Shown here piece after piece: positions 24,124 to 64,000 of a stretch of 64,000 bases of DNA. Positions within the stretch are counted from its first letter, which is position 1, and each line of letters starts with the position of its first letter. Below the pieces are notes generated by a model. The model saw nothing but the letters and a program-made list of their open reading frames with translations, was not told where the DNA came from and made no database searches. The position numbers and the translations under genes are program-made. Origin of the DNA: Astropecten irregularis (lineage: Eukaryota; Echinodermata; Asteroidea; Paxillosida; Astropectinidae); NCBI GenBank assembly GCA_963971285.1, contig OZ020262.1, positions 6,543,036 through 6,607,035 on the forward strand, in the 5' to 3' direction.

Positions 24124-39485
<15,362 letters not shown>

Positions 39486-42954: not shown

Positions 42955-43077
42955 TCGTTTAGCTCCCCCGGGTCGACACCAGTGAACCTCGTCACCATTC
43001 TCTCGCTTGTTTTGTGCAGTATAACACGATCATTCCCAGTAAAGGCTGACCCGTGTTAGCTAAACGAATGCACCCAT
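42955..43077. mobile_element. MITE family 5, copy 1, upstream of LAMP A
   Basis: Ends TGGGTGTATTCGTTTAGCTC and GTTAGCTAAACGAATGCACCCA are inverted. The interior (GGGTCGACACCAGTGAACCT, CTTGTTTTGTGCAGTATAAC) matches copy 2. Confidence 0.85.
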
Positions 43078-43094
43078 TATAGACCTAGTTATAT

Positions 43095-43586: not shown

Positions 43587-46186
43587 ATGATGAAGCTCCA
43601 CGCACTCGTGCCCCTGCTCCTGCTCGGTAAATATGCCTGCCGTTCCGTTAGCAGCAATTTCAAACGGTGGATAGATTGTTGGCGATCTCTTACCTCAAAC
43701 ATTGCCGTTATATTATACACAGAGCCACCATTTTGAAAATCAAAGGTGTGCACATTTCGAATGGCCAGTTATTCCATGTCTGTGTGCCAAATGGCTCGTT
43801 GGTGAATGGTGGCAGTACAATTCCTGTATTTTGAAATGAAGTCCTAGAGTATTTTAAAAAGAAACGGTTGGATGTTGGACGAGGTAGACTTGTCTAGGGA
43901 CACTGCAGTGTCAGTCTAATAGATTACGATTGCCAAGTTAGCACTACACGTAGCTGTTGTAGACTGGTTCCCCTATTCTATTCGGTTCTCAGTTACTCAT
44001 CCTTATTTTACCTTGCAAAAGGCAATGCTTGATTCTCAAACTACTAATTTATCTCGTGGTGGCGTTCGATAGGTTTAAGAATGTTAATAGTAGATAATGT
44101 ATTTGTCTTAAACCTTTTTTGTGATGAAATGTCAGGGTGCTGCCTTGCTGCATCAAACAGCAGTCAAACAACCCCCACTGAGGGTGCAACAACCACGTTG
44201 AGTACGGCGTCCACCGTGATGACGACCGTTCCGCTCACAGCCATGACGACACCGGCACCCACGACCGTCCATCTGACCACAAATGCCCCTACAACACAGG
44301 GACAGACGACGGCGATTCAGCCAGCTCCACCAGCGACCACCACGCCACCGGGCACGACACCGATAGGCACGACAATGGCAACGACCAGCAGCCCCGAGTT
44401 GCCGACGTCAACAGCCAACTCGACTTCCCCGGTGACCGGCAACGGCACGACAGCGGCCGGCGGTAACACCACCAGCGGTGAACCCACGACGACCGTCCGG
44501 CCCACAACTCTTCCTCAAACTACGCCCGGCAATCATGCCACCGTGTGGGAGGTGTTGGGAGGCCCGGACAACAACAGCACGTGCCAAAAGATGCAGTTCA
44601 ATGCAGACATCACAGCCACTTATTACGACACAGATAACATGGTCAGTATCTTTCTCCGTCTTCTCATCTTAGTCCATAAATTCCCCTCACGAAGGCGCCG
44701 TCACAACGCCACATTTGAAGATGACCATTTTGGCCCCAATGCCAAACAATCACAAAAATGAATCATATTGTTTTCCATGGGAAACAATAGTGATATTTGT
44801 GTCAAACTCATTTCACTTTAAGTTCGACAATAATCAAGAACAGTCTTGGAGATGCGGTTTGACCATGGTTTACTTGTATTTTCTTGGCAACCAGTTAAGA
44901 ACTGTTACGATCTCCGTCCCGCCTACATCCAACGCTACCGGCGATTGCTCGTCTGCCGTGGTGAGGTCCTTCAGCCTTGCCTTCGTTCCTCAGGGTGGGA
45001 TGGAGACATGGACGATGTCCTTCTTCTTCGCAGCCAACAAGACGTCCATGGACTACCAGCTGAAGTCCATCAGTGTCCAACTGAGCTACGGAGACCTCGT
45101 CAACTCCACAAGAGAAGGTACGTCTTCTTTTTGTACGGATGCAAGCAGGGTCTCAAGCATCCATATCCAGATGCCATGACCGTCTCATTGCTTTATGAAG
45201 ACACAAATATCGTAACATCCAAACTTATACAGATCTCCTTACTGGGTGCATTCGTTTAGCTCCCCCGAGTCGACACCAGTCAACCTCGTCCCCATTCTCT
45301 CACTTGTTTTGTGCAGTAAAACACGACCATTCCCAGTAAGGGCTGACCAGTGTTAGCTAAACGAATGCACCTAATATGTGGTGCGACCCACGGCACTGAG
45401 TGTGAGGCATCAAACTACCATCCTCGCCGCAGTCTAAATGTTTCATGTCGACTATAAGACACGATTCCGTGGTCAATACAATTAATGTTGTTCTTGATTT
45501 TTTTTGCAGGACAGGGTACGTACTACTTCTCCTCGTCGGGGCGCCCTCTAGCGGGAATAAGTGCGCCCTCTGGGAAATCCTTCGCTTGCGACTCGGGCAG
45601 AGTCGAGTCAGGCGGTGAGGAGCAACTCAGCGTGTTCCTGACCCAACTGCGACTGCAACCGTTTGCGAACGAAGCCGGTGGAGATTTTGGAGAAAGTGAG
45701 TAGACGAATTGCCCATTTGAAGTTCGTCAACTTCTTAACACTCGGGCTCTTTGGTAATTATCAAAATAATAAGGAATATCCGGTTACATGTTGGGTTTGT
45801 CGGCTACACTCTTCCACGGTGTTTCTATTTGGCGACACTTGAAGTGTAAAATCTACACCAGGATGTCAACTTTGCTCTTTTAGAGCATATGGCATATAAA
45901 ACACACTGGTTTCGTTTGAAGACCGCAGATATATGCATGATACCTCTTCAAAAGCTCTAGTTTTTCTTCTTGTTCTTTTCTCCTATCAACAGGTGTGCAA
46001 TGCCCCTACCCAACGGCACCGCCTCCGGTCACCCAGAAACCGATGGATTCTGCTTGGATGAACGTGGGAATAGCCTTCATCGTTTTGTTTAGTGTATTGC
46101 TCATAGGCACTAGTGCATTCTGTGTCTACGTCAAAAAGCACAAGTTACAATCCAGCGACACATACAGCCTAATGGAGACTTATTAA
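43587..46186 (+). CDS. LAMP-family protein A (lysosome-associated membrane glycoprotein)
   Basis: Five exons: 43587-43626, 44136-44641, 44895-45117, 45510-45695, 45993-46186 (TAA); the joined frame is 382 residues. Exon 1 is a signal peptide (KLHALVPLLLL). Exon 2 is a Thr/Ser/Pro-rich mucin-like stretch of about 130 residues that runs straight into the start of the LAMP domain (NNSTCQKMQFNADI). The four luminal cysteines are in STCQK, GDCSS, FACDS and VQCPY, the usual LAMP arrangement of two disulfides, and LQPFANEAGGDFGES matches the conserved end of the domain. One membrane helix (VGIAFIVLFSVLLIGTSAF) is followed by a short basic tail ending YSLMETY, whose YSLM fits the YXX-hydrophobic sorting signal read by AP complexes. 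Many NXS/T sites suggest heavy glycosylation. Unlike copies B-D, no intron separates mucin region and LAMP domain. An alternative first exon exists at 41546. The family is clear; LAMP1, LAMP2, LAMP3 and CD68 types cannot be separated. Confidence 0.88.
45243..45372. mobile_element. MITE family 5, copy 2, in LAMP A intron
   Basis: Collinear with 42955-43077 over the full length: TGGGTGCATTCGTTTAGCTC, GAGTCGACACCAGTCAACCT, and end GCTAAACGAATGCACCT. Confidence 0.85.
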
Positions 46187-46244
46187 AACAAGATCATGAC
46201 TTTCCTGTTAGCAACAAGAAGGCAATTACGTTTAGTGGTCTTCG

Positions 46245-46612
46245 TTAAAGGGATGGTACAGAACTGGTTTTTGCGACAAAACCATTGCTGACAGTGAAAG
46301 CACATTATGTAATCCATCATAACTGACAACCCTGTAGAAGTTTGAGGTCAATCAGCCATCTGGGTCACGAGAAAATAGTGAAAACCCGTGTACAGAGAAC
46401 TGTACACATTTCAACGAATGAATAAAACGCTTCGAAGCGATTTATTCCCATCGGAAAATAGTTTTATTTATTTCTCAACGAATATGGCATTTCAGACAAA
46501 AACATTTCATGGGATGTTTTCTCCTATCATCACCATTATACTGTGTACGTTTTATGTGAATCTCTGATCATGAAGTGTATTTTTGCTTACCAAATCTGTA
46601 CCATCCCTTTAA
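46245..46612. mobile_element. TTAA-flanked MITE downstream of LAMP A
   Basis: TTAAAGGGATGGTACAG at the left and its exact complement CTGTACCATCCCTTTAA at the right bound 368 bases. It starts 58 bases after the LAMP A stop, so it is probably in the 3'UTR. Confidence 0.75.
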
Positions 46613-47013
46613 TTGTAAGAAAGGTCTGTTGGCCGCGGAGATGGCCATAGAACACTGATCGCAACGTCGACACAATTCCATTTTTTTTCAGACGCAGCTT
46701 TATTTCCACAAGAATCATTTTCTACCATGTCGCCCTTCACTTTCCAATCTCCTAAGAATTCAAATGCAACTTCAGATGCATTTAAAGATTTTGCGTTTAT
46801 TTTATGAATTTCTACATGCATATTTTGCATATTTTGTTGCGGCCGAATATCTTGAGAAATATTTGGAAAGATATGCCCATGGTTTTTGTTTTCTCTTTGA
46901 GAGTAAAAAATCTTCTTCTTTTTTCAAGATAATGAATGGATAGAAAACCAAGACTATCCTGAACTGTGATAACGCCATTGTACAAACTCCATCATTAATA
47001 TTCAACATCCGTG

Positions 47014-47323
47014 CCAATTTTGTAATCCATTTTGTTGTTGCATAAGTATTGTACCCAGACTTCAAACACTGCTTTCCAATTTTGTAATCCATTTTGTTGT
47101 TGCACAAGTATTGTACCCAGACTTCAAACACTGCTTTCCAATTTTGTAATCCATTTTGTTGTTGCATAAGTATTGTACCCAGACTTCAAACACTGCTTTC
47201 CAATTTTGTAATCCATTTTGTTGTTGCACAAGTATTGTACCCAGACTTCAAACACTGCTTTCCAATTTTGTAATCCATTTTGTTGTTGCACAAGTATTGT
47301 ACCCAGACTTCAAACACTGCCTT
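47014..47323. repeat. Minisatellite, exact 62-base unit, five copies
   Basis: CCAATTTTGTAATCCATTTT recurs at 47014, 47076, 47138, 47200 and 47262, always 62 bases apart. The units differ mainly at one base (GCATAAGT or GCACAAGT). It lies between LAMP A and B. Confidence 0.95.
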
Positions 47324-47896
47324 ACTCGAATTTATAGTGCTCACGTTAGCAACGCATAAACTGCTCGTGAAATTTAGCTAGGATTCATTTTGTACCCAAG
47401 ATTGAACTAGTTTAGGTTTAATTGCAGATGTTTTGCAATCGGATTAATTAAAAGTGTACATATTTCAAGAAGATAAAACGCAATTTGTATATTATAGTAA
47501 GAACTTTAGATATTATTATTTTTACACTGTGTATTGTTTTCTTTCTTAAAAAAAAATTGAACCCATGCCTGAGCAATAATGGCTCGTAAGACAAAGTAGG
47601 ATACAACATTTGCCATTGTCGTGATTTCAAATTACTAGTCACCGCAACCATTTTAGAAGTATTGGTGTCATTGCAGCTAGTGTCAAGCTTGTATTCAAAC
47701 TATAGATTCTATTGAAATTCGTTCTTATTAAAGATGTCACTCAATTTGCCGCACTAGAATTCTCTTGAATCTTTTTTTAATAAAGGTATTTGCAAAGTGC
47801 AGGAGAAATTTGAAGTGTCATTTGGTCTTAATTTAAAAACAAACAACCAAATATAATATAATCATCGAATATAAAAACGTGGACACCGCAACATAG

Positions 47897-47990
47897 GGCT
47901 GGATAGCTCAGTTGGTAGAACGCCGATACGGTATTCGGTGAGGTCGCGGCCTCGCATCCAGCTGCAGTCAGTTTTTGTTCACTTTTTAAT
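47897..47990 (+). repeat. tRNA-derived SINE fragment
   Basis: GGCTGGATAGCTCAGTTGGT and AGGTCGCGGCCTCGCATCC resemble the 5' and 3' parts of a tRNA, but the anticodon loop has eight bases and the length is only about 67. The text after it (CAGTCAGTTTTTGTTCACTT) looks like a SINE body. It lies about 650 bases upstream of LAMP B. Confidence 0.6.
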
Positions 47991-48530
47991 GTTTTATCTA
48001 GAGGTTTTTATATCTACAAAATAAGGATTTGCGGAGACACCATCTAGAATACACGTATTGGAAGAGGTTTGCCCGTTCTGAGAAGAGCCGCTGAGTACGA
48101 ACTCGACGTTTCAGCCAGTGTGCTCTGGCCGTGCACTCGGGGGAGAGTCGGGGCATGTTTTCGCCACTAAAACACCGGGTCCATGCAAGACAGCCGGGAA
48201 CAGACCGCAGATTCTTTGAAGATACAGTCCTAAATAATTATGTAGAATTTTGACGGTTGTATAGAAAACAGATATCGATTGAAAATAAATGGAATAAACG
48301 ACTGTTGCATATTAGCACGAGAACAATAATATTAAAAGATATTAAAAACAATGTAAAATATACGACTGTTGCATGTACCACCTATATTCCAAGTCAGCAA
48401 ATGAACTTATTGACTTCTGACACCCAGAGTAAACAGGTTGAGCTGTAAAACCGCCAGATAAAAACCGAGATATTCATTTCAGTTGCTGTGCAAATAACAC
48501 GACGACTGGCAAACAAGCAAATTGATATCA

Positions 48531-48539
48531 TCACATGAC
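48531..48539 (+). promoter_or_regulatory. MITF/TFEB-type M-box upstream of LAMP copy B
   Basis: TCACATGAC lies 79 bases before the copy B start codon. TCACATGA is the M-box form bound by MiT-family factors and differs from the CLEAR consensus at one central base. The position just upstream of the ATG makes it the best-placed of the sites in the array. Confidence 0.4.
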
Positions 48540-48617
48540 GTTTCTGCTATCAGATAGTGGCGCCATTTTGTTCGGGGAGTGTTAGAATAGAATTGTCTGC
48601 TATTACTACAAGGCACC

Positions 48618-51600
48618 ATGGCGAAAATGATATTCTGCTTTCTTCTCGTCGCATGTCTCGGTAAGTTTGTATTCATTACCCCATAAAATTACCAAAAGCA
48701 GATCACGCTCATTTGAATGTAATCACAGAAACGCAACACGCGAGTGATGTCTGGTAAAAATTAAAGCAAGTTTACAGCTCTTTGCATTGGGATTATACAA
48801 GGCTATTCATATTTGTTTTCTCAAATTACATTGCCTCGTACAAGGCCATCGGTCGCTTTAAACTGTATTTTGCATGCCAGTGTAGCTTTCACGAATACAG
48901 ACAGAGTGTTTGTCAGGTTTTTAGGACATACAGGCCTAGTGTGGGCACCTTGTTTACGGCGACAAATAGATTGGTATCTCGTATGATGTGGACATTTAAA
49001 AACGAATTTCTCAAACTGTTCGTCACTTAAAAGGGATGGCAGGGTTCTCTCAGTTCTCTCTGGTCTCTCTACTCTTTAGACTACAAAAATATTAACAAAT
49101 GTCAGGGGTTATCCTCCGCCCTATGTTGGAGAAAACCAGTCCCTCGCACTGAAACAAGACCGATGGTCTATTCACAGTGTATGTAGGACTATTATAGGGG
49201 TACCTAGTCCACATCAAGGCAGCGATGAATGCCTCCCCCCCCTATGGTGTGGAGAAACCAGTCCCTTACACTGAAACAGGACTGGATGGTCTCTTCACAG
49301 TATAAATATGACTGGAAGGGTATCTAGTCCATAGCAAGGCAGCAATCAATGCCTCCACCTCTATGATGTGGAGAAACCAGTCCCTCACATTGAAACAAGA
49401 CTGATGGTCTCTTCACAGCATAAATATGGTTGGAAGGGGTACCGAGTCCACAGCAAGGCTATTATGGAGTGGAGAAACTAGTCCCTCACACTGAAACAAG
49501 ACTGATGGTCCCCATACAATCAGTTGAAAGGGTTGCCACTTGTTTCACTCCAGGAAGTATACCGATACGAATTCAATAAGACAAGCAAGATAAAGAAAGG
49601 ACATTGAGTTTATGATATTCGCAACAATGACGATTGCCGTGCCATTATTCTTTAGGCTTCGCACCGGGCATGTCACAGATGAATTCAACGACTACTGAGA
49701 CTACAGGAACAGAATCGACGAATGGCACCACGATGGCAGCAACCAGCAGTGGGCTGGAGCCCAACAGCACAACGAGCTATACCAACCACACCGAGCCGCT
49801 GACTTCCATGGCCACGGACAACTCCAGCAGCAACGCCACGCTGGTACCCACCGAGAAGCAGGCCACAAGCCTCCCCGTGACAAGTGCCCCCGTGGCTAGA
49901 AAGTAAGCAACTCATCGTACCCCTCTCCAGAATCTTAAGTCTTATGATTCCAAAATGTAGAGAGAGCGAGGATGGTTTCAAATATTTATAGCTGTAGATT
50001 ACAGAAGCAGGGATTTGAACCCTGGACCATGGGCCCAATTTCATAGAGCTGCTTAGCACACCAAAATTGCTTAGCACAAAAACAGGTTGCTCAATAAAAC
50101 AAACCTCTATTGAAAATTCCATTTGATATTAATGGTCAGCGAACAACAGCCAACGAACAATCACAAGTGATACACAACACGTGGATATTTGGTTGTTAAT
50201 CCTGTTTTTACTAACTTAAGACAGAAATGTCATGCTTAGCGAGTTTTTGTGCTAAGCAGCTCTATGAGATTGGCCCCAGATCTGTAGTACCATACAACAG
50301 CAGACCCCTGTAGCTAATGACGGTAATTTATTAAGACAGGTTGTTTCTCAAAATCTACACAATGAATTCTTCCCAGGTACACAGTGAATGGAACTGATGG
50401 TGTTTGCATACTGATGATGTTCTCTCTTGATATAGACATCCCCTTCAACAACACAGACGGCCAGGTACGTAACACTGTACACATCACCAATCATCAATGC
50501 AAGCAAAGAGACTTGGGTATGTTTGTGGACCTAAGGGCTCCGTAAGGGATACTTGTCCATTATGCTACTTTAAAATTCAAAACTTCTTATTTGTCACGCC
50601 CCTCACAGATGGACACTAACAAGTTTACCTTCCCGGACAACACCGTTGCGTCAGGCAACTGCTCTGACGAAAACAGCCGCTCGTTCGTCTTGACCATCCC
50701 GGACTTCGAGGACTGGTCGCTCCGCTTCGACTTCGATACCGTGGACTCGGAGGAGGACGAGTCTGCGTACGAAATGAGCGCCGTCTACTTCAGGTGGAAG
50801 TACGAGGAGCCGTTCTTCGATAGTGCGCAGCTGATGAGTATGTCTAGATTCCCTCCTCTGTAGCTTTCGCGTCAGGGCTGGGCTCACCCAGAGGGGAAGA
50901 ACGGGGGTATCCTTCTATTTGATAATAGACCGTTTGGATAAAAACGGAGTCAAACTTAATAAAACTATGTCCAAATCTAAGAGTTCATTTAGAAATAGTG
51001 CCGAGATATCAATGATGAGGTTCAGTGAGAAATATCGTCTGAGTAATCTCAATGGGCTTCATTGGAGCTGTCTTGTTTCTAAGAGTTTCCTTTCCTTTGC
51101 CGAAATCTTTCTAGATCAGACCGATGAAGCAATGACGAAGGACCGAGAGGTACTGAACGTCCAGGCTGAGACCGGCATGACGTTCCAGTGCAGTAAGCGA
51201 GAGATACTGGTGCAATCAGTTGTCATGAACTTGAAGAACTTGAAGTACCAGCCTTTTGCGGAAGAGTCGGAAGAGAAGGGCGACTTTGGAGAAGGTAACA
51301 GCATTTTCTGATCGCCGCTGCTGCTGCTAGCGTCCTCTGCCCTTCCAACCCTTGTCTTGGCCCCTAGCCCTACCTGTACACATGCTCCTGTATCTGCTCC
51401 ATCCATTTCCCTACTTCCACCTTTGTAGCTGTACCTGTCAATCCCACTGGCCCATAAGGTTGGAAGTTTCTTCCTCCAGTCAGCCCTGTCCACGGCTACA
51501 ACTTTGGCTTCCCTCCAAGAATTCCATCCTAGGCCCTTTCTTTCCTTATCACATGCCCAAATCCACTTCCATCTTCTCAATCTAACTTCATCGCCTCAGA

Positions 51601-52099
51601 AGAGTATCTGCTACTACCCATGACTTTTCACCCTGCACTTGCTCCTGAGTCAGGTCCAGGATCTGTTACAATGTTCTAACTCTTGCTCCAGCCTCGGTGC
51701 CCCGTTGCTCCGGTGCCCCGGTGCCACTGCCCTTGCCCTTGCCATTGCCCTTGCCCTTGCCCGTGCCCTTGCCCTTGCCCTTGCCCTTGCCATTGCCCTT
51801 GCCCTTGCCCCCGCCCCACCTGCCCCTACCCCTGCCCCCGCCCTGCCCCTGCTGCTTACAAACATCCCTCCATTTCTCTACTCATGTCGATGTTAATTTT
51901 TGTTCTGACAGCACAATTATGTGCCGAGGATGTTCCGACAAACAGCCCACCGGGCACCACCCAAGCATCGACGGACAAGACCGGTATGATTGTCGGCATC
52001 ATCATCGGGGTCCTGGCAGCAGTCATTCTCATCCTAGGAGGGGTCTACTTCCTCATGAGACACAAGCACAAGCGAGAGTCGTATAAAAGTTTGGATTAA
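48618..52099 (+). CDS. LAMP-family protein B
   Basis: Six exons: 48618-48660, 49656-49902, 50377-50464, 50609-50837, 51115-51294, 51912-52099 (TAA); the joined frame gives 324 residues. Exon 1 is the signal peptide (MAKMIFCFLLVACLG). Exon 2 is a Thr/Ser/Asn-rich mucin-like stretch of about 80 residues. Exons 3-5 encode the LAMP luminal domain: KYTVNGTDGVCILMMF, then GNCSDEN, the FRWKYEEPFF motif shared with copy C, FQCSKR, and YQPFAEESEEKGDFGEG. The fourth cysteine is in AQLCAED, followed by a Pro/Thr hinge, a membrane helix (MIVGIIIGVLAAVILILGGV) and the tail RHKHKRESYKSLD. The tail motif is YKSL plus one residue, close to the classic GYXX-hydrophobic end but with Ser instead of Gly. It lies head to tail with A and C. 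Expected place is the limiting membrane of lysosomes or late endosomes; function beyond that is not readable. Confidence 0.92.
49124..49540. repeat. Diverged tandem repeat, unit 100-125 bases, four copies, LAMP B intron 1
   Basis: GGAGAAACCAGTCCCT recurs near 49127, 49251, 49370 and 49471, followed each time by CACTGAAACAAGACTGATGG or a close variant and by TAGTCCACAGCAAGGC. Confidence 0.85.
50031..50277. mobile_element. MITE family 2, copy 2, in LAMP B intron
   Basis: Ends GGGCCCAATTTCATAGAGCT and GCTCTATGAGATTGGCCCC are inverted repeats; inner GCTTAGCACA pairs with TGTGCTAAGC. The middle matches the copy at 6931. The sequence just before it (AGGGATTTGAACCCTGG) looks like a tRNA-derived SINE piece. 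Confidence 0.8.
51699..51850. repeat. CCCTTG hexamer microsatellite in LAMP B intron
   Basis: About 20 imperfect CCCTTG/CCCCTG units lie just before the last LAMP B exon. Pro/Leu- and Cys-rich frames here are produced by the repeat. Confidence 0.9.
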
Positions 52100-52153
52100 A
52101 ACTGAAAAACGGGGAGGAAATTGCATACATGAGAAATCATTTCAGCTGAGTGT

Positions 52154-52291
52154 TAGGTCGTGTCCCAATCCTCTGGATGCGACCGCAAATAACACACAAG
52201 TCTATGGAAATGGCTGCAGACACTGGATGGTGGCTGCCATAGGTATGTGCGTAATTTGCTGCTGCAGCCAGAGAATTGGGACATGGCCTTA
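52154..52291. mobile_element. Palindromic MITE in the 3' region of LAMP B
   Basis: TAGGTCGTGTCCCAATCCTCTGG on the left pairs with CAGAGAATTGGGACATGGCC on the right. It starts 55 bases after the stop codon. Confidence 0.6.
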
Positions 52292-52295
52292 TATT

Positions 52296-52301
52296 AATAA
52301 A
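52296..52301 (+). terminator. Possible poly(A) signal of LAMP copy B
   Basis: AATAAA occurs about 200 bases after the copy B stop, just beyond a MITE-like palindrome (52154-52291) that would then be part of the 3'UTR. Confidence 0.4.
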
Positions 52302-52311
52302 AACCGAGGAT

Positions 52312-52520
52312 GGGTACTTAGGGAGACATTCTCATATGGTCGTGCACAGACTTTACTTACCTATTCCTAAACAATACATCCTCAAAACCAATGAACTTGA
52401 AATTGACAAATATGTCTTTAAAAGGTAGCTGATACATTAGGGAGACATCGAAAAGTCTCCTTAAGTCCCGATGTCTCCGAAATGTTCACTTTCAGACGCT
52501 AACAAGTCTCCCTAATACCC
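52312..52520. mobile_element. Small MITE with GGGTACTTAGGGAGAC ends
   Basis: GGGTACTTAGGGAGAC at the left matches GTCTCCCTAATACCC at the right in inverted form; an inner TTAGGGAGACATCG and GATGTCTCC add a second inverted pair. Confidence 0.5.
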
Positions 52521-54530
52521 TACTTGTAATTATATACTTTTAGACCCTGAAGGGGAAACAATATTGTTATTGACATTAACACAGGGAAACAGAGGATAGT
52601 GTTAACGTCAGTTAATTAAGAATGATACCTTTTCGTATAAGGATAACATTGTCAAGATACGGTACTATAGCTTAAGACAGACAAATTACTACTTGAAGCT
52701 TCTGTGATTTTAAAGATCTTTCACTGAAATCTTTTTTTTTTACCGTATATTGCGGAATGAACTTATTATAATAGATTCCATACTGCTAACAATTCAGAGG
52801 TGAGTTAATATTCGTTTGGCAAATCCTACATCTAACTGGCGGCATGACGAAAAAAAAAACGAAATAAAAATGCAAATGAATTTATCGTAAACAGAGAATT
52901 GATATCTTATGTTTGTAGCCTTATCAGTATGTGTGTAAATATTTCTCTGAGATGAAGCATTGTATGGCAATATGGAGTTTGTACTTTGGAAACAATGTAA
53001 TTTTCAAGCTATGCTGTACTCCAAGCGCCATATAGCCAACTAAACAAAATAAATAGGTAAAGAAATAGAGAAATAGATAAGATGATCCTATCGGTTTTGA
53101 ACAGTTAAATTTGTTAAGGGTCCCTAACATTATACCAGTGACATTTGGTTTATATCAATTTAACTCTTCAGAGTTTGATTACAATGACCATTTTTTGCTT
53201 TGGTGCCACAAAATTTGTTAAAAACACGACAAATCCCAAATCCTCAAGTTTAATTTTATTAAACTAAATCTGTTCTGAAAAGGACCCTTTCCTAGTGCTG
53301 TTTAACAATTTGGTCCTATTCCTCTGTTAGTTTTAATTCTAAACTAACCCTGAGGCCTCAGTAGGAATTGTACAATGGTATTATCTTTTATATTTAATTT
53401 CAGATCTGAAATTACCATCGCTTGGTAATCGTTTTGATGCTTGTCATTGTCATTCCGATTGATTCTTAACCACTGCAGCAATGGCGACAACATCCTGTTT
53501 TTATTTTAAAGAGAGAAAACTGGCTACTTTAGTACTTGTATTTAATTTCAATAACAAGAGATTGACAGTAATGCTGGTGCTAAAATTTACTGAAAGATTG
53601 TTATCTAGAATTGTGTGTATTACCCAGTCGGTTAGAATGTACTGCATATGTATAAAGCCAATAGTTATTTTACACTGCGGAACAGGATCAAAGTACACGC
53701 TGGTTAATCGAACTTCAAGTGGGCACTGGTACCCGGCGCATCATCGGTTGATGTTTGTGCTGTTCACGTTGGTGGTGCCGTGGACCAGTTATGTGAGGAA
53801 ATGTAATGTGAAATAAACAAATAACAACACAGTTTGCCTTAGTACTACATAATTGTCGTATGTTTTTGCATGGACTGCCATTATACCCATCAACTAAAGG
53901 ACACATTTCGCTTTTGATAACGTGTTATTTATAGCGTAATGGCGGCATCCTATCGACGCCATTTTGGAGGTCATATCCAAAATTTCAAAATATAACCAAC
54001 GTTTGCTAAACATGCTCACAATTTGCAATCTTGAATCTGTAAAATTTTATTTCATACCAAAAATTTGATTGCAATTTACCTGACGATAGAGGGCAGCATA
54101 TAGGAAATAGATATTATTTTCAGTATGTGCGCCATTTTGTGCTCTTAGAATCATCCATGAAAATGTATACAAAATTGAAAACTTGCCAAAGCTACAGAAG
54201 AGGACCTCTGTTGTCATTGTATATAAGCACACACATTAAAAGTTTGTGTGGCATGACAAACAGATTACACTCATCTTAGCTAATTTATTTACAACGAAGA
54301 TTTTATCGATCATCGCTCAAAGTCCGGGAAAAGGTTGAGCTTGTTTGGCCTCTAGAACACGAACACACTGCTCTAATGTAATGCTCTAGTTGCACACGGA
54401 ACCTTTTGTTTTTGTTTCATTTTACATGACTTGCCAAATAACCTATATCATACTTTATAGTACTTGAATCTCCCACGGTTATATGTTGTATGCAGATCTA
54501 TTACATGCTGCCCTATGACCAAAATCCAAA
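52521..54530. other. Spacer between LAMP B and LAMP C
   Basis: AT-rich, no gene recognised. The 111-residue frame at 53481-53816 starts in a plausible place but has no family similarity, so I leave it unannotated. Confidence 0.4.
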
Positions 54531-57484
54531 ATGGTGGAAAGATTTTACCTTCTGCTCCTGATTGCCAGTGTAGGTTCGTGACTAATAATATTGTTCGTTT
54601 TCTTTAGTATTATAATGATAACCATTTTGAGTATTCTGTTCCAAATTAATGACAGTATTTTGAAAATTTTGGATAAATTTGTAATGTTAATGTCAGTTGT
54701 TAATGTCAACTACTGTTAAGGCTTTGGCTTCAGACTTCGTTTTCATGTATAGACCCCTGGACTTAGCCAAGACAGCCAAGGGTGTCAATCTATTGGCCTA
54801 AGCCTGGTACTGAAAGGCTAGCCAAGCCGTAGCTGTGATTTCGAAAAGGCGAATAGTTTTGGATATAAGAATGGAGCTTCGTTAACGTGTTGCTAATTCT
54901 ACTGCACTGAGCCTAGCGACGGGTCAGCCCCGTCCTGATTACATTTTCTTTCTCTAGGTCATTTAGCCAAAACAACCGCGGACACAACAGCTCCAGTTGC
55001 GACAGTCGGATTGGCCACGACAGTTAACGACATGACTACCAATGTCACCACACAAGAATCAATCACATCGACCGGTACGGTGGCCCCTACAACACATGGC
55101 GCTGCTCCCATCATCCCAAGGTAGGGAAACATAACCCCACGCAGTTGATCTGATACCAAAAATGTATCGGATACAATCGCATGGTTTAATCGAAATTTGT
55201 GTCTAGACGAGACGAGACAATCCGACACATCACATGTCGACACATCACAAGTCGAGAAATGACGAGATTAGGCGAGACATCTCCAATCTCGTCTTTGAAA
55301 TCTGGCTTTTTTCACTATTCATCTTTACAAGTTTGAAGCTTGAACTACGTTTTGTACTGTATTTTTGTCTATAGGTACGTTGTGCTGAACTCTGATGGAG
55401 AAACGTGCATGTTGCTGCAGTTTACTTTCAATGTGTCAATCAACTATACAACAAAGACAGGACAGGTAATATTCAATCTGGTTTGAATTTCCTAATTAGT
55501 CATTATTACATCGCTGAGAACCTCTGGTTGTAAGAAGTTTCAATAGCAAATTGGAGGACTATATGGAACACATTGAACGATGTAGGCTACAGAGACACTA
55601 ACTAGGATCGTCCCGACGTGGAGGAATGACTATGGTCGATTTCACGAAGCCCTACGATCGATCGTAACTCGAGTTACGAAGGATAATCCATCGTATGGGG
55701 ATTATCCTATAGGACTGCACTGCATCGCAAGTCCTAAGATTGATAGTAAGTTACGATGAGTTTGGTGAAATCGGTCCCTGTGGGCATAATTGTGGTTTCC
55801 ACAGGAGAAGACGACCGTAGTTGCATATCCCCAGCTTGGCGAGGGACAACCACAGGGCAACTGCACCGGTGACTTCAGGCAGTTCCTTCTCACCTTCAAG
55901 CAGTACCCAAACTGGCAAATCGGACTGGACTTTGCCAAATTCGTCACGCCGCTGAGACCGGGGGTCGTCATGTTCATAGTGACCAAGCCGGTGTTCAGGT
56001 GGAAATACCAAGAGCCGTTCTTCCCGGGTGATATTCCCGATGCAGGTGGGTAAGTGGTGGCTGGGGTGTAACTAAGCCCTCAAGCAACGTCCTGACATTA
56101 CCTTACAGTTCACTTTACCACTGTCATGGCGTCTTTTGGCTGTAAAATACCACGCAAAGCAGACCGTGATATTTATCGTTTCAGACCAGTGACTTGCCAA
56201 GGTAGGGCAAGCAAAATGACTCTTCCAGCATCCTCCGTGCACAAAATCACCCAGAAATCGGAATACGTTCAAGAAACCTATCATTAACAAGTTGGTAACC
56301 TTCCTTGGTTGGATATTTAATACTATTATCGGCAGCAAAACTTTGTGGCACAGTACAATCAGGGTTCAAATGAAAGAGACAAGAACTTCAAATTAAATTG
56401 AATTTGACTCTTTAAAGACTCTACAGAGATGTGGAGTTCTGTACACGTTGACAATCATCTTAAAGTTAATGGTTAACAGCCTTACAACCGTCTAACCAGC
56501 ATTGTGTTTCTCCCAAGGTAAAACCGATGAAGCCGCTTTCGACTTGAACAAACTGGATATACAGGCGGCGGCCGGACATACCTTTAAATGTGACAACCGG
56601 TCGGTGACCAATCCACCAGCCAATTTCACTCTCATGAACATCATGTTACAGCCGTACGCCCAGGAGTCCGAAGACAAGGGCGATTTCGGCATCGGTAAGT
56701 GGCTGGTCTTGGACCGCTCATTTCAACAGCTTTATCAGGTTTATGAGAGGAATACCCTCAGAGAACAGAACAGGAAATCGATTGAGGCTATTACAACAGA
56801 ATGTAGGATTCTTTAACTGTTTAGCGTCAGTATGTCAGCCCGAGCATGTGTTCCGTAGGTCTGGGGTTCGAATCCTGAATATTTGTTATTCCTTCTTTTC
56901 TCAACTGGAATCATTTGACAGAATTGCGTACAGTGGTTTAATCTGGCATCGAAGAGTCAGTGGTTAGCCACCAGAATCATGTTCAGATGTAACCGAGGTG
57001 TGTTTATCAAGGAAGAATGTTTGCTGAGCACTACCGGGCTGCGCTAGTTCAATAATCAGAACAGGAAAATAACAAATACTGGGTATTAGAATATCACATT
57101 ATTCTGGGTATCCTTGCCGGTTACCAGTTACCTCGCTGGTTACCATGCAGTCACCTGTATACTTGAAACTAGGATATTTCACAAATTTCGTGTTGGCATG
57201 TCATATCTGCCTTCACAATTATCTTGGGATTAAGAATTATCATTATTTTATTACCTTTTGTTTCCTTTCTTTACTCTTCACAAAATGCAGTCGAAGAGTG
57301 TACGAGGACCTCACCGACGTTTCCTCCTCCCCAGCTGCCGACCACGGGGGCGCCCTCCATCGGCACCGGAGGGGTCATTGCCATAGTGGTCGGAGTTCTT
57401 GCCGTGGTGGCTGTGGGTCTTGCATTCGCCGGTACCATCTGGTGCAGACGCCGGGAGAGGGCAGGCTACAGCGGTCTGACGTAA
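54531..57484 (+). CDS. LAMP-family protein C
   Basis: Six exons: 54531-54573, 54958-55120, 55375-55465, 55805-56045, 56518-56694, 57291-57484 (TAA); the joined frame gives 302 residues. Exon 1 (MVERFYLLLLIASVG) is the signal peptide. The mucin-like exon is short, about 54 residues, so this is the least mucin-like copy. The LAMP domain has RYVVLNSDGETCMLLQF, GNCTGDF, the motif FRWKYQEPFF shared with copy B, FKCDNRS, LQPYAQESEDKGDFGIG and the fourth cysteine in EECTR. A Pro-rich hinge, one helix (GVIAIVVGVLAVVAVGLAFAG) and tail RRRERAGYSGLT follow. GYSGL is a textbook lysosomal GYXX-hydrophobic signal at the usual distance from the membrane. Exon phases (1, 2, 0, 1, 1) equal those of copy B exactly, so the two are recent or well-conserved duplicates. 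A MITE ends 26 bases before exon 4. Confidence 0.92.
55634..55778. mobile_element. MITE family 1, copy 7, in LAMP C intron
   Basis: A well-preserved copy: GGTCGATTTCACGAAGCCCT and CGATCGATCGTAACTCGAGT on the left, GTAAGTTACGATGAGTTTGG and TGAAATCGGTCC on the right. It ends 26 bases before exon 4 of LAMP C, so it probably holds the branch-point region of that intron. Confidence 0.8.
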
Positions 57485-57885
57485 TCATGACGAGTCTCAA
57501 ACGAAGGATTGTAGGTTCTCGAATGACACGCGTGTGACCTCTGAACTTATGCTAGGCTGGAGTGTCTGGCGCCACCTAGCGATGACAGCCTACATTCAAA
57601 ATACAAAAACTTATGTTAATTATTCATAATTATAAACATAGTTATTTAATCCTCCCAATCACATGCGAGAGAAGGTGTGGAAGCAAGAAACAAAAACGCT
57701 TACATATGCATGTATTTTATCATGAACAAAATAATGAAATGCAATTTCAAAATTCTTGAAAATCTTAAAGATAGATCGGTATTATCATTGTCTCCTCGAT
57801 GGCCCCGTACGTCATCTTTGAGTTACAACTTCGAAGAAAAATTCATTGAAGAGATGTTTTGATAACGAAGTAAATTCACATTCTC

Positions 57886-57891
57886 AATAAA
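57886..57891 (+). terminator. Possible poly(A) signal of LAMP copy C
   Basis: AATAAA lies about 400 bases after the copy C stop codon, followed by a T-rich stretch. Confidence 0.4.
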
Positions 57892-58424
57892 TTGGAATCT
57901 TTTTGTATATTTCAGATTGCTGGGATGATATTACACGATTGTCATTTATTTGACTTTGTGTTCATAACTTATCCATGATACCATTATGGTATACTTAAAA
58001 GACAACATCAATATACCCCAATCGAAGATTTAATCTCCCGTTCGAGATAAAAATCCTTCATCCATTTCAGATTCTTAAAGAATAAAGACCCCAATATAGA
58101 TATATTGTTTTCATATTTTATGTTGTACAATGAACGCACACAGAAAAACTCGCAGATCCAAACTGTTCTGAATTTACTCGATCGATCCATTTCAACCATC
58201 TAACCCTGTATGACCACCGCCCACTAGTGGCAGTATACTTAGTAGTTGGTTTTGTTGAAAGCCGTGCACAAACATGTATCATGCGAGCATACCAATTATG
58301 TCAAAAATAAATAACATTTCGCAATGTGTCTTTGAAATTAAATTTGACCCAATGTACATTACACTATGCAAAAATACGTAACCGCACTTCGGCTCTGTCT
58401 GGCTCCAAGCAAGTATGGGCCGGT
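57892..58424. other. Spacer between LAMP C and LAMP D
   Basis: AT-rich spacer with no gene or repeat recognised, leading into the E-box-bearing upstream region of copy D. Confidence 0.4.
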
Positions 58425-58434
58425 GTCACATGAC
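58425..58434 (+). promoter_or_regulatory. CLEAR/M-box site upstream of LAMP copy D
   Basis: GTCACATGAC equals the CLEAR consensus except for A in place of G at the centre, a form accepted by MiT-family factors. It is about 350 bases before the copy D start. A second E-box, TCACATGTGA, lies at 58668-58677, 108 bases before the start. Confidence 0.4.
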
Positions 58435-58784
58435 TTCAGCACGCGGACAATTACAGTGACGGGATTTCCCACGATCCAGTAACAATTTATTTCTGATGCA
58501 ACCAAACGTCACAACGAACGCAGCGAGAGGCCAGCGAGCGACTGGTAAGCGAGTCTAGGCAAGCACAAAATACACGACAGTAATAATATCGTTTTATCGG
58601 CTGGATTTACGTATAGCGGACTGGTATTGGCAAACATTGCGCAAAAAACCCTCGACCTTAGCAAACTTCACATGTGACTCGAGTTGCAGTCATCAGTCGA
58701 TCAGAGTCCACTTTAGGAGAACGTACTGCATTTATTTCACTCCACAGTTTTTCTGTGTCTGCAATACGAGCATAATACTGCGAG

Positions 58785-61700
58785 ATGATGGCTTCGTCTA
58801 CTACTGTACTGGTGCTGTGCCTGTTTGCGTTTTCCGGTAAGGATGTTACATGATATTGGGCTGTTCTGAAACTTTACAGGCCTATACATATGGATCAATA
58901 TTCGACTTATAGTGTGGACGCATGGTTTTCCCATGTAGCATAGCTGTTTAGCACACCGTGTAAAGCCTACCATTCTAACCGTTTTACTCCTTCAAAAGAC
59001 TTGTCTACTGACATACTGTAACAATGGAGCTATGTTCCATGCTGTAACCTATAAAAGCATTCTGATATTCTGATATTACATATAAACGAATAGAGACTGA
59101 GCTTCAGTTTGATGGTGGTGGGCGGATGCCTGACACAAACCCGTACGTGTACCATGCCTGAGGGTACGGTGACCTTGTAGGTCATAGTAGCATATTCCAC
59201 CATGTTGATCGGTGTGTGTATAATACGTATACATAATTCATAGGCAGACTTGTATGGTATTCGATTCGTATATTGTGCTACGAACAATAATTATTTTACA
59301 CAATGTAGGCATAGTGAGCCGCGCGGTATCAGATATTTTCAGAACTTTCATTTCCGCAAAAGCGGGTAACAGCGGGCCACCATAATTATGAGGCCTACAG
59401 TTACAGAGTATTTCTAGTGGGTTCGTAATTTTGTACGTTGATAAGGTACGAAGTTCAAATCGGCCGTGGCATGCAGGTTTTCCTCGGCCCAGCCTCGATA
59501 GGCCCACACGGCACAACTGTATCAATTTCAAGAAATGTACTGAACCGCTAAAAATACGAATTTTAGGGCCTTTACGAAACCTGGCTTGAGGCTAGGCTTG
59601 GTACTTATTTTGCTACCGCCATTTGAGACCCACAAAACGAAAGGGATTGGGCCACATGATGAAGCCGAAGAAAGGCTCCAGCTTCGCCATGTATCTCAAG
59701 CCCTTTATTTCATTTAGGACACAAAATGGCAGTAGCAAAATAAATCCCAAGCCTAGCCTCAAGCCTCATTTCGTAAAGGCCCTTTGTCTCTAGCTCTTCC
59801 ATTATCATGCAAAAAAATACAGTTGTATATACAGTTTATAGTACACACTATTTTATACTTTATCATCTAACCATGGTGTTCATGCATTAAGCGCGTTATT
59901 ATCAAAATGTCAGTTTAAACACGGCTCTTGTACTTTGAACCAACATAAAGGCAAACATCAAATAACACTTATCAAAATGTGAGCAGGAAATATGAAAACA
60001 ATTCATATGGACCTATTTTTAATTAATTTCTGATGGGGAGACGGGATGTTTATATTTTCCAACATCAAAAAATGGTATTTCTGATTTCAGGCGGGCTTAA
60101 AATAAATTATTTTTAAGAAGAGAATTGTACCATACCATGACAATCAACAGGTATAACGATTGGGATTTTATCCGTTCTACTTTGGACAAAATTGATAACA
60201 GAATGCGAAATGCTTTCTTATAAACTGGACTGAAAATAAGTTTTTGCTATTGCTCAATTTATGCAGCTGGCAGTGGAAGTTTAGCTGCCGTGGTCGCGAA
60301 TTCCACGACGATAAATCCGACTAATGTTACGATCAATTCGACGACTCCGATGTCCAGTGTTCCGACCAGTTCGACAATCGCAGCGGGCAATACTACAACC
60401 GTTACACCCACTACTGTAACTGCAACGACCAGGGTTACGACCGTTACACCCACTACTGCAACTGCAACGACCAAGGTTACGACCGTTGCACCCAACACAA
60501 CAACTGCAGCGAGCAATGTTACGACCGTTGCACCCACCACTGTAACTGCAACGACAAAGGTTACGACCGCTGTACCCACCACTGCGACACAGGTTACGAC
60601 CGTTGCGCCCAACACTACAACTGCAGCGAGCAATTCTACAACATTTGCACCCAACACAACAACCCCATCTAGCAATGCTACGACTGCAGGACCCAACACA
60701 ACTGAAGTTACGACCGCTGTGACTGGAAATAGCACTGCAAACACAACGGGCGCCGCCAGTACGACCATTCCTGCCACCGTAACCCCAAAGCCATATGTCC
60801 CCAGGTAGGTGACACATCAATTGGACAAAATAAACATCACATTTGGCTTCGTAAGATCAAATTGATATAGATTTTAAGGATAAATCTTGGTATTTTGTGA
60901 ATATGAGATCGCACCAGTCTTAACTTTCCGAAATTAGCGAAACACATGAAGAATTTCAGATAGGCCTAAACCGGCGGGCTTTGCAATTTATATGTGAAGA
61001 CCTGGGCTTGATTTCACCAAGCACTACGATTAATCTTAAGATGAGTTGTCAGTATCACCATAATGATTGGTATTGTGACATCACACTTTGCTTAGCAATA
61101 AGATTGATTCATACTTAAGATCAGTCTTAGTGCTTCGTGAAATCGGCCCATAAGAAGCCCGAAACTTTTTCTACCAAGGATACATTCACATCGGCAAATG
61201 ACACAACTCAACTCGAAAAGACAGCAAAATAGAAGTGATAGTTAAGAAGCAACAACATATGGAAATGTATGTTACCTATTTAGTTTTGATTTTCCCTTTT
61301 TGTGTGTAGTTTTCGCGTCAACAATTCGGACGGCGAAGTTTGCATGTTGCTGGATTTCAACGCGACCATGGTGCTGAAATACAAGACGAAGAAAGCAGGG
61401 GTACGTATTAAACGTAATACGCCATAATCAGGTTAAATTTTTCCTAACTAGACTCTTTTTGCAGATGAAAAGCAGCCTTAAAGGTACTATCATACTTTGG
61501 TAGCATACCGAAACAGAAATCTTCACATATTTACCTATAACTTACAATGTATCAAGATGGTGATGGTAGAAACATACCGTTAGACGTTTTTTCTGACTGA
61601 AATGCTGTATTCATTCAGCAAAAAGTAAAACCAAATTGTCCAAAAGAATTTAGATCTTCGGAAGATCAAAAAACCTGTGAAAAGATTTCTGAAATACCGT

Positions 61701-64000
61701 GTGCGTTGTGCACTGTTTTCTCAACAAAAAGTGGGCACCGTATGGGACAGGGAATTTCAAAGATGTCTGCTTTCTTGATATCATTGCCCAGGAATCTGCA
61801 TTTCTTTGCCAACAAGTATGAAATTCCAAGTGAGCAAGTATGCCTAATGTATATGCATATCTTAACTACACATCTCTGCGACTATTTGCTTTCTTTGTTT
61901 GCTTTTACTTTGATTCCCTTGCGGTATCAACTGAGATAAAAAAAAAATTGAGCATTTGTAGTTACTACTTTTCTCAATCGCTAGCTCTGTCACAAAGTCC
62001 TTTGCGATAAGACAGTGATATCAATTTGAATCAAACTTGACATTTTGGTTCGTGTGAGCTAGAAACAAAATGAAACATTGCGTGACTTAATTACTTATGG
62101 TGATGTCAGAATTTACGCACGAAGTCACGAGACCTGTTGTGCAACTAGAGGAACCATCAGGTAAACTCGTGATCCAAAAGGCCCACCATATTTAGTAGAA
62201 AAGTCCTCGATGACGTGGATGTGACAAGGACGACCAGAAATGAAACTACAGATCTGAACATTGATAAGAAGCATGCCGGAATTGCGACACAAATGGAAAT
62301 CCCTAGTCTGGTTTCCAGCCAACATATTGTTATCTTAAAGCCATTACAACGGACGGCTCTTTATGCTACAGTATTTAGCTAATGGTTTCTCCTTTTTCCT
62401 GTAACAGGAAGACAATTGCTGTTTTAAGCATTCTGTTCTTATGTGTATACCACCCACCTGAAAAGGAGCATTCAGTGCAAAAACAAAAATGAAATCAGTT
62501 TCTGGTTACAACCTATTGCAAAGATGACGTCACAATGCTCCCAAGCAATGACAATGGAGCATTCAGTGCACCCCAAAAAATGAAACCAGTTTCTGGTCAT
62601 AACCTAAAGATGACGTCACAGTGTTCCCAGCCAATGACAATGGAGCATTCAATGCCATAACGAAAAAAATGAAACCACTTTTCGATCACAACCTAAAGAT
62701 GACGCCACACTGCTCCCAGCAAATGACAATGGAGCATTCAATGTCAAAAAATGAATTCAGTTTTTGGTCACAGTTTTTGCTAATGGATATGGAAATTATT
62801 GTTTGCGCACGTAAACAAAATAAAAATGTGAAACAAATAACCAAACAAACAAACGAACAACAAAACTAATTTAAAAAAGCAAAAAAAGTTAAATTAAATA
62901 AAAAGAAGCCAGACGACCGACAGACAAACAGACAAAATTACCAATCATCTTTTTTCGTCACCGGGAACAATTCTTAATAATCAGACACTTTTCTGTGCGT
63001 TTCTTTCAGGTCCAAACCTCTGTGATACACATCACCAATACCACTGACTACGAGGGCTTTTGCGACAGCGACACACTGCGTAACTTCACTCTGTACTACC
63101 CGGACAAGAACATGACGTGTGCCGAGCTGGTGGTGTACTTCAACGTGACAAGTAACACCACCTACTACAACCGCCAAGGGATCTACGTGCGCTACATCGA
63201 ACCTTGCTTCCGTCCAGATGCTCTCAGATACAGTAAGCATACCAGTGCTGTTTACCTTATATGCACACTTTAAGAACTCCTCCAACTGGATGCCCAAAAG
63301 TATCTTTTAAGGGCAGTTTTATAGAATTGGTAAATATCAAATATCACTGAAGGGTTTTTATTTTCTTGTAAATTTCTTTATAATCATCAAATTATTGCGA
63401 GGGAAACTGACTGAATTTGAAGTAATTGAAAAGTGAGTAAAGTAAAATTGAATGGAGCGGGATTCAAACCGGCGACCTCCTGAATACCGTACAGGCGCTC
63501 TACCAACTGAGCCATCCACCCCTACGTTGGTGGTGACCCCAATAGTCAATTGTATCTGTTCGTTTGGCAGTCAGAAGCCATGAAACCACACACATACTGC
63601 TATACCCCAAGGATCATTTTATCGATACTCGCAGCAACGCTGCAACCTGGGAACGGTACATGGGGATCGCTGAAAGACATGTATAATATTGCTCTTTCTT
63701 CTTCATTTCAGATGAAATTGGCGGAGGCCTCTACCCAATATCTTACAGTAAGTTTAACAGTTCTATTATCATTATCAGACGTAGATAGAAATGTCATATA
63801 ATCCTCTTTGTGATTCAACAAGTTAATCCAAACCGGTGGCGGTATGTTCGATATCATGAAATATGTTTGTCTTATTCACTTGTTGACTAGTCAATTGCAG
63901 CTACCATGACGCCTGCCCCAATTCGATATCCCAGTTGTTTGCTCGATCACAACAGTTTGATAACGAAAACTATTCGATCCCAACGGCCGTGACTAACGAC
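58785..64000 (+). CDS. LAMP-family protein D, divergent, cut by window end
   Basis: Exons seen: 58785-58836, 60267-60804, 61310-61400, 63010-63232, 63712-63747 and probably 63891 to beyond 64000. Exon 1 is a signal peptide (TTVLVLCLFAFSG, two possible ATGs). Exon 2 is the largest mucin-like exon of the array, about 179 residues of nearly pure Thr/Ala/Val/Pro/Asn with an imperfect internal repeat around VTTVAPTTVTATTK. Exon 3 (SFRVNNSDGEVCMLLDF) starts the LAMP domain. Exon 4 has GFCDSDT where B and C have GNC, plus two additional cysteines (MTCAE, EPCFR). A 36-base micro-exon (EIGGGLYPISY) and a following exon with INCSYHDACPNS are inferred from phase-1 continuity and have no counterpart in B or C. 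The membrane helix and tail lie outside the window. Being a LAMP relative is well supported by exon plan and position; whether it still goes to lysosomes is unknown. Confidence 0.82.
59565..59783. mobile_element. MITE family 3, copy 2, in LAMP D intron
   Basis: Complete copy with ends AGGGCCTTTACGAAACC and TTTCGTAAAGGCCCT, inner GCTTGAGGCTAGGCTTGG matched by CCAAGCCTAGCCTCAAGC. A palindromic element with inverted ends of about 40 bases. Confidence 0.85.
61478..61830. mobile_element. TTAA-type MITE, family 4, copy 3, in LAMP D intron
   Basis: Starts TTAAAGGTACTATCATACTT, has the GAAGATCAAAAA centre and ACCGTATGGGACAGGGAATT. The right inverted end is eroded. Confidence 0.65.
62464..62775. repeat. 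Tandem repeat of 86-91 bases with CRE-like TGACGTCA, LAMP D intron
   Basis: GGAGCATTCA recurs at 62465, 62556, 62642 and 62731. Units carry AAGATGACGTCACA in the first two and AAGATGACGCCACA in the third, so two of them hold a full palindromic TGACGTCA. Confidence 0.85.
63432..63620 (-). repeat. tRNA-derived SINE in LAMP D intron
   Basis: On the minus strand the head reads GGATGGCTCAGTTGGTAGAG then GGTTTGAATCCCGCTCC, an A box and a B box of RNA polymerase III type. On the plus strand the tail ends TTCGTTTGGCAGTCAGAAGC and ACTGCTATACCCCAAGGATC, shared with 22655-22885. The anticodon loop is malformed, so it is a SINE and not a tRNA gene. Confidence 0.8.

Follow-up and report, generated by a model that had tools for sequence, protein, structure and literature searches.

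Which kind of LAMP-family protein would be encoded by four genes standing head to tail in the genome of the sea star Astropecten irregularis, and how did such an array arise? LAMP proteins form a glycocalyx on the lumenal face of lysosomes and take part when lysosomes fuse with phagosomes or autophagosomes (PMC3409847, PMC9221867). One LAMP domain adjoining the membrane helix is given as a feature of the family (PMC3409847), and vertebrate LAMP diversity is traced to whole-genome duplications in a lineage whose vertebrate ancestor possessed one LAMP (PMC9221867). The window analyzed here is a stretch of 64,000 nucleotides (C27:6543036-6607035, + strand) from a genome of 475.7 Mb in 168 contigs. 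An earlier note on this stretch had described four consecutive LAMP-family genes and had read them as a lineage-specific expansion. Gene models were built by reading the + frames of the window plus the next 80 kb (L001), and four head-to-tail + strand models, termed A to D, were obtained at 43587-65755 of window numbering:

43587-46186, + strand: gene A, 5 exons (43587-43626, 44136-44641, 44895-45117, 45510-45695, 45993-46186), 382 aa, tail motif YSLM, PF01299 at 1.6e-10
48618-52099, + strand: gene B, 6 exons (48618-48660, 49656-49902, 50377-50464, 50609-50837, 51115-51294, 51912-52099), 324 aa, tail motif YKSL, PF01299 at 2.3e-11
54531-57484, + strand: gene C, 6 exons (54531-54573 with a weak donor and least certain, 54958-55120, 55375-55465, 55805-56045, 56518-56694, 57291-57484), 302 aa, tail GYSGL containing the motif YSGL, PF01299 at 9.5e-7
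58785-65755, + strand: gene D, 7 exons (in the window 58785-58836, 60267-60804, 61310-61400, 63010-63232, 63712-63747; beyond 64000 L001:465-602 and L001:1547-1755), 428 aa, tail motif YGNL, PF01299 at 2.4e-6 for the domain

All introns of these models are bounded by GT-AG, and the intron phases 1, 0, 1, 1 are common to A-D. In gene A, the stalk and the first cysteine of the domain (C1) are encoded in one exon with no intron between stalk and domain, and in gene D the exon carrying the third cysteine (C3) is interrupted by an extra phase-1 intron, leaving a 36-nt exon at 63712-63747. The end of D had been expected outside the window; exons 6 and 7 were indeed located past 64000, extending the gene by 1755 nt (1.8 kb) and completing it with a helix and a YGNL tail. 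A coding exon of D considered at 63891-64000 was dropped when the true C3 exon was found at 64465. Poly(A) signals occur downstream of every A-D stop codon, the first of them at 197-402 nt, which is weak evidence in AT-rich DNA.

The first exons, placed by hydrophobicity and donor only, are the least certain part of the four models. At candidate limits of hydrophobicity above 1.8 and donor score above 0.5, one candidate exon end each was found in the spacers of A, B and D and none in that of C; the background at the same limits amounted to 3 matches on the rest of the + strand (43 kb) and 6 on the - strand (64 kb). For the first exon of C, looser limits gave three candidates, from which one was picked by position, phase and length; its donor GTTCGT is weak. 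With these choices, the first exons of A, B, C and D measure 40, 43, 43 and 52 nt and each ends in phase 1, as the earlier note had described for a signal-peptide exon of 40-52 nt.

Assignment to the LAMP family was evaluated with profile searches. A, B and C exceeded the curated cut-off of PF01299 (27.2 bits), and D passed it with the domain alone (27.9 bits, 2.4e-6) and scored 25.7 bits (1.1e-5) as a whole protein; partial or earlier models of D gave 20.2 bits or no match. Furthermore, a profile of A-D searched against PDB ranked LAMP1, LAMP2 and LAMP3 first, with E values from 1.8e-24 (LAMP1) to 2.7e-5 and the best non-LAMP entry at 0.056. A profile built from A-C, leaving D out, detected four exons of D (i-E 5.7e-10, 1.7e-8, 3e-5 and 4.1e-4), and on reversed sequence as a control its best match reached i-E 3.5. 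The four genes in a row thus hold up as LAMP-family members. PF21222, the LAMP2-type membrane segment, gave no match in A-C (E 10), D (E 1) or in the related genes E and F described below (E 1), and A-D are therefore LAMP-family proteins but not of the LAMP1/2 type. In line with this, each of A-D carries one LAMP domain, and the two-domain arrangement of LAMP1/2 was found in another gene of this genome, H.

The predicted proteins share one architecture, in which last exons and helices were assigned by eye. Stalks of 51-173 aa with 35-46% Ser+Thr precede a domain with the four-cysteine pattern of the LAMP family (pairs about 37-40 residues apart): C1-C2 spacing is 37/37/39/37 and C3-C4 spacing 39/38/38/40 in A/B/C/D, the disulfides themselves being predicted, and D carries extra cysteines. 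In all four models, the LAMP domain lies directly before a single membrane helix, in a type I arrangement with signal peptide. The YxxPhi tail motif is present in 4/4 of A-D and in 0/2 of E/F; such a motif in a short tail is weak and also serves endocytosis at the cell surface. Accounts given before of the four-cysteine luminal domain in every copy and of the helix with Tyr-motif tail in A-C were borne out, and the Ser/Thr-rich exon was confirmed as a rich stalk in all four genes, that of A sharing its exon with C1. As modelled, A-D would be membrane-anchored rather than secreted. In the stalk of D, a further repeat was recognized:

60342-60699, + strand: Thr-rich 42-nt (14-aa) repeats, seven overlapping matches with one spacing of 33

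Regarding the extent of the array, the A-C profile was run in six frames over the window plus 80 kb (144 kb), where only A-C and D were recovered and the next best match had i-E 0.92. More copies past 64000 had been anticipated; no fifth copy follows D in the next 78 kb, and two related genes, E and F, were found elsewhere on the contig instead. The A-B and B-C spacers have the same length (2431 nt), and similarity between the intergenic spacers of A-D was not detected at E 0.01. Fibrinogen_C or ABC-transporter matches occurred in 4/10 neighbouring ORFs scanned; together with the spliced genes and the size of the genome, they are in keeping with an animal. The surroundings and non-coding parts of the array contain the following elements:

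18549-20674, + strand: gene whose Fibrinogen_C domain is divided among exons (PF00147, 1.3e-4 and 7.4e-16)
about 32257-36501, + strand: ABC transporter exons upstream of the array (ABC_tran 6e-9, ABC_membrane 1.6e-10), ABCC-like by look only
43000-43080 and 45297-45377: two copies of an 81-nt repeat (91% identity), the first upstream of gene A, the second in its intron 3
46952-47385: 62-nt tandem repeat downstream of A, whose inner copies match the reference at 98-100% identity
47889-47936, + strand: 48-nt stretch in the A-B spacer, related to the tRNA-Thr-like sequence in D
59565-59783: 60-nt inverted repeat in intron 1 of D, arms 90% complementary and 99 nt apart
63449-63521, - strand: tRNA-Thr-like sequence in an intron of D

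The inverted repeat looks like a small foldback element, and the tRNA-Thr-like sequence and the related 48-nt stretch are perhaps tRNA-derived SINEs.

Searches of the genome with its own proteins placed the array within a larger family. A PF01299 family search of the whole genome returned no match, but it gave a match in 0/14 control genomes as well and is hence uninformative. All nine matches obtained with B were exons of B, C or D, and A returned four matches to itself and two weak ones on the minus strand at C27:14.24-14.26 Mb (E 0.069 and 0.23). H was located at C27:12.096 Mb with domain 2 of human LAMP1 as query (E 0.001). The corresponding genes on the array's contig are:

C27:12095890-12101876, - strand: gene H, two-domain LAMP1/2-type, modelled without its first exon
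C27:14237841-14258302, - strand: genes E and F, a single-domain LAMP pair 7.6 Mb from the array

The exons of E/F matched the A-D profile at i-E 9e-8, 9e-8, 8e-6 and 3e-5, their C2 exons alone ranking at 0.47 and 0.74 below one unrelated match at 0.26. PF01299 recognized F at 2.7e-9 and the domain part of E at 3.5e-10, and a search with E returned E, F and A. Eighteen matches were obtained with D, 11 of them off C27. Four of these 11 were examined and showed membrane-helix similarity only (best i-E 0.046); the remaining seven aligned at query positions 155-229 with E values from 0.12 to 5. H showed PF01299 in two stretches (2.8e-28), PF21222 at 3.6e-15 and the tail RSRSSRSGYQSV. Moreover, a LAMP5-like gene, G, was found on contig C8 through two individually weak matches (E 0.67 and 1.5) to human LAMP5; its exons matched a 12-row profile at i-E 1.9e-4, 7.7e-4 and 1.4e-3 and LAMP5 at 6.8e-6, 2.9e-5 and 1.9e-3, and the joined protein gave PF21222 at 6.7e-7 and PF01299 at 2e-6. 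The genome accordingly holds at least eight LAMP genes, namely six single-domain genes (A-F) and H on the 14.6-Mb contig C27, and G on C8, the count being a lower bound because exon-wise six-frame searching has little power where genes are divergent.

E and F stem from a recent duplication. At the DNA level, E and F share 94-99% identical blocks totalling about 7 kb and two more blocks at 82% and 86%, and domain plus helix differ with about equal dN (0.025) and dS (0.022); the 14 differences over 195 codons are not enough to demonstrate a relaxation of constraint. The segment holding the signal exon of F is absent from E, whose 5' end may be damaged. The tails of both genes lack YxxPhi, are basic and Cys-rich, and are unlike each other.

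In order to place the copies, 15 LAMP domains including G, H and vertebrate LAMP1/2/3/5 were compared in the main tree, with LAMP3 as a partial row and no CD68 row; the invertebrate rows were this genome's own copies. A-F grouped together, apart from G, H and the vertebrate LAMPs, with support 89/92, B+C with 92/86, B+C+D with 82/84, A+E/F with 74/77 and G+LAMP5 with 98/95. In a 15-row tree in which the H row differed by one (wrong) letter, the values were 84/87 for A-F, 92/87 for B+C, 75/76 for B+C+D and 76/67 for A with B-D. Smaller trees recovered A-F at 88/93 (11 rows, without LAMP5), 96/97 (12 rows) and 99/98 (10 rows), and A+E/F reached 61/39 in the 10-row tree. Within A-F, only E+F reaches 95/80. 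AU tests rejected neither A+E+F (p-AU 0.432 and 0.305) nor A-D (p-AU 0.503, 0.388 and 0.311). The A-F branch and B+C are thus fairly steady, and the position of A, with B-D or with E/F, varies between runs; the array may not be one clade and may hold two branches.

The gene structures were compared with this topology. An intron of phase 2 between stalk and domain is present in B, C and D and absent from A, E, F and both H domains; in G, a Ser-rich stretch reads straight into C1 in an exon whose start is not fixed. The simplest reading is that this intron was gained once, before B, C and D diverged from one another, in agreement with the tree; losses elsewhere would be another way. The A-D proteins are 23-35% identical to each other, and the path between B and C (1.86 substitutions per site) is nearly as long as that between human LAMP5 and G (2.04). 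The array is therefore old, unless these genes evolve fast. Since A-F stand apart from the vertebrate LAMP rows, the array does not appear to be the vertebrate gene set in a still clustered state. A tree had been named beforehand as the means of telling an expansion from ancient separate families: A-F do group apart from the vertebrate LAMPs, and the copies are old with an unstable place for A. Of the expansion itself, an additional single-domain branch A-F stands; a recent origin does not, and the array is only part of that family.

Taken together, the best explanation, to which a probability of about 0.72 is assigned jointly for all its parts, is that A-D represent four distinct genes coding for LAMP proteins with one domain and a mucin-like stalk, probably CD68/LAMP3-like endolysosome or phagosome glycoproteins that arose by old local duplications and belong to the branch A-F. 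Judged from sequence, the genes would be transcribed individually, and their products would enter the secretory pathway via the predicted signal peptide. In the lumen, a LAMP domain with two disulfides would bear a stalk that is presumably heavily O- and N-glycosylated and may contribute to a glycocalyx. The protein would span the membrane once, its short YxxPhi tail sorting it to endolysosomes or phagosomes. A-D would have arisen on the same chromosome from a LAMP gene, in an order and at a time that the trees suggest, and A-F would form a branch separate from the two-domain LAMP1/2-type H and the LAMP5-like G, both of which were kept.

An unlikely alternative holds that A-D are ancient separate LAMP families, adjacent since before the chordate split, with at least one of them orthologous to LAMP3/CD68. 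It would account for the low identity among A-D (23-35%), for a B-C path close to that of LAMP5-G and for a gene A that is maybe nearer to E/F than to B-D (74/77), and the layout of stalk plus one domain is that of CD68 and LAMP3, a LAMP domain beside the helix being described for the family in PMC3409847. Against this, A-F stand together opposite all vertebrate rows in every tree (LAMP3 partial, CD68 left out), the partial LAMP3 row of the 15-row tree lying on the other side of the 89/92 branch, and H and G exist separately as LAMP1/2-type and LAMP5-like genes.

The location of the proteins could also be a different one: instead of residing in lysosomes, A-D might act as mucins of the cell surface or be secreted as decoys, which the mucin-like stalks (35-46% Ser+Thr) and the missing YxxPhi in the related E/F would fit, but a membrane helix, a YxxPhi tail and a LAMP domain are combined in all four, making this reading improbable as well. 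Decay or mis-modelling of one or more copies, e.g., C or D, is considered very unlikely; the weak donor of C, the 25.7 versus 27.2 bits, split exon and extra cysteines of D, and the related copy E without the segment bearing the signal exon of F point that way, whereas open frames of 302-428 aa over 4-6 introns with four cysteines and YxxPhi kept in A-D speak for intact genes.

Under the preferred reading of A-D as old local duplicates with an endolysosomal or phagosomal role, the closest known counterparts are CD68 (macrosialin) and LAMP3 (DC-LAMP), which likewise possess a Ser/Thr-rich stalk, one LAMP domain, one helix and a short tail with a Tyr motif. This layout of stalk and single domain suggests, by analogy, phagocyte or endolysosome glycoproteins. 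CD68 is likened by layout and not by sequence, the partial LAMP3 row lies outside the A-F group in the 15-row trees, and unlike CD68/LAMP3, A-D stand four in tandem. LAMP1 and LAMP2 share the LAMP domain, the four cysteines and the Tyr-motif tail with A-D (LAMP1 at 1.8e-24 with the A-D profile) but differ by two domains and PF21222, and H represents that type in this genome. LAMP5 (BAD-LAMP, UNC-46) belongs to the same family and, as A-D, has one LAMP domain; A-F do not group with it, and its counterpart in this genome is G (98/95).

A literature search of titles and abstract openings, with subscription journals partly covered, yielded no report on tandem LAMP arrays or echinoderm LAMP families among the matches listed. 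The array itself is an ordinary event, tandem duplication of long standing among genes of a known family, and is of moderate interest for its separate branch and for the loss of the tail motif in E/F. More speculatively, and with odds clearly against it, the lineage might have built its own single-domain, mucin-stalked LAMP branch in parallel to CD68/LAMP3. Within that branch, E/F, having lost the sorting motif and showing no trace of purifying selection since their duplication (on the 14 differences given above), would be turning from lysosomal glycoproteins toward cell-surface phagocyte mucins. In this animal, whose copies A-F fall outside the vertebrate rows, one gene of LAMP1/2 type and one LAMP5-like gene accompany six or more single-domain copies, of which four stand in tandem. 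Should relatives bear this out, it would represent an independent way of acquiring many LAMPs and could help to show which parts, i.e., stalk, tail motif and domain, vary freely as lysosomal glycoproteins multiply.
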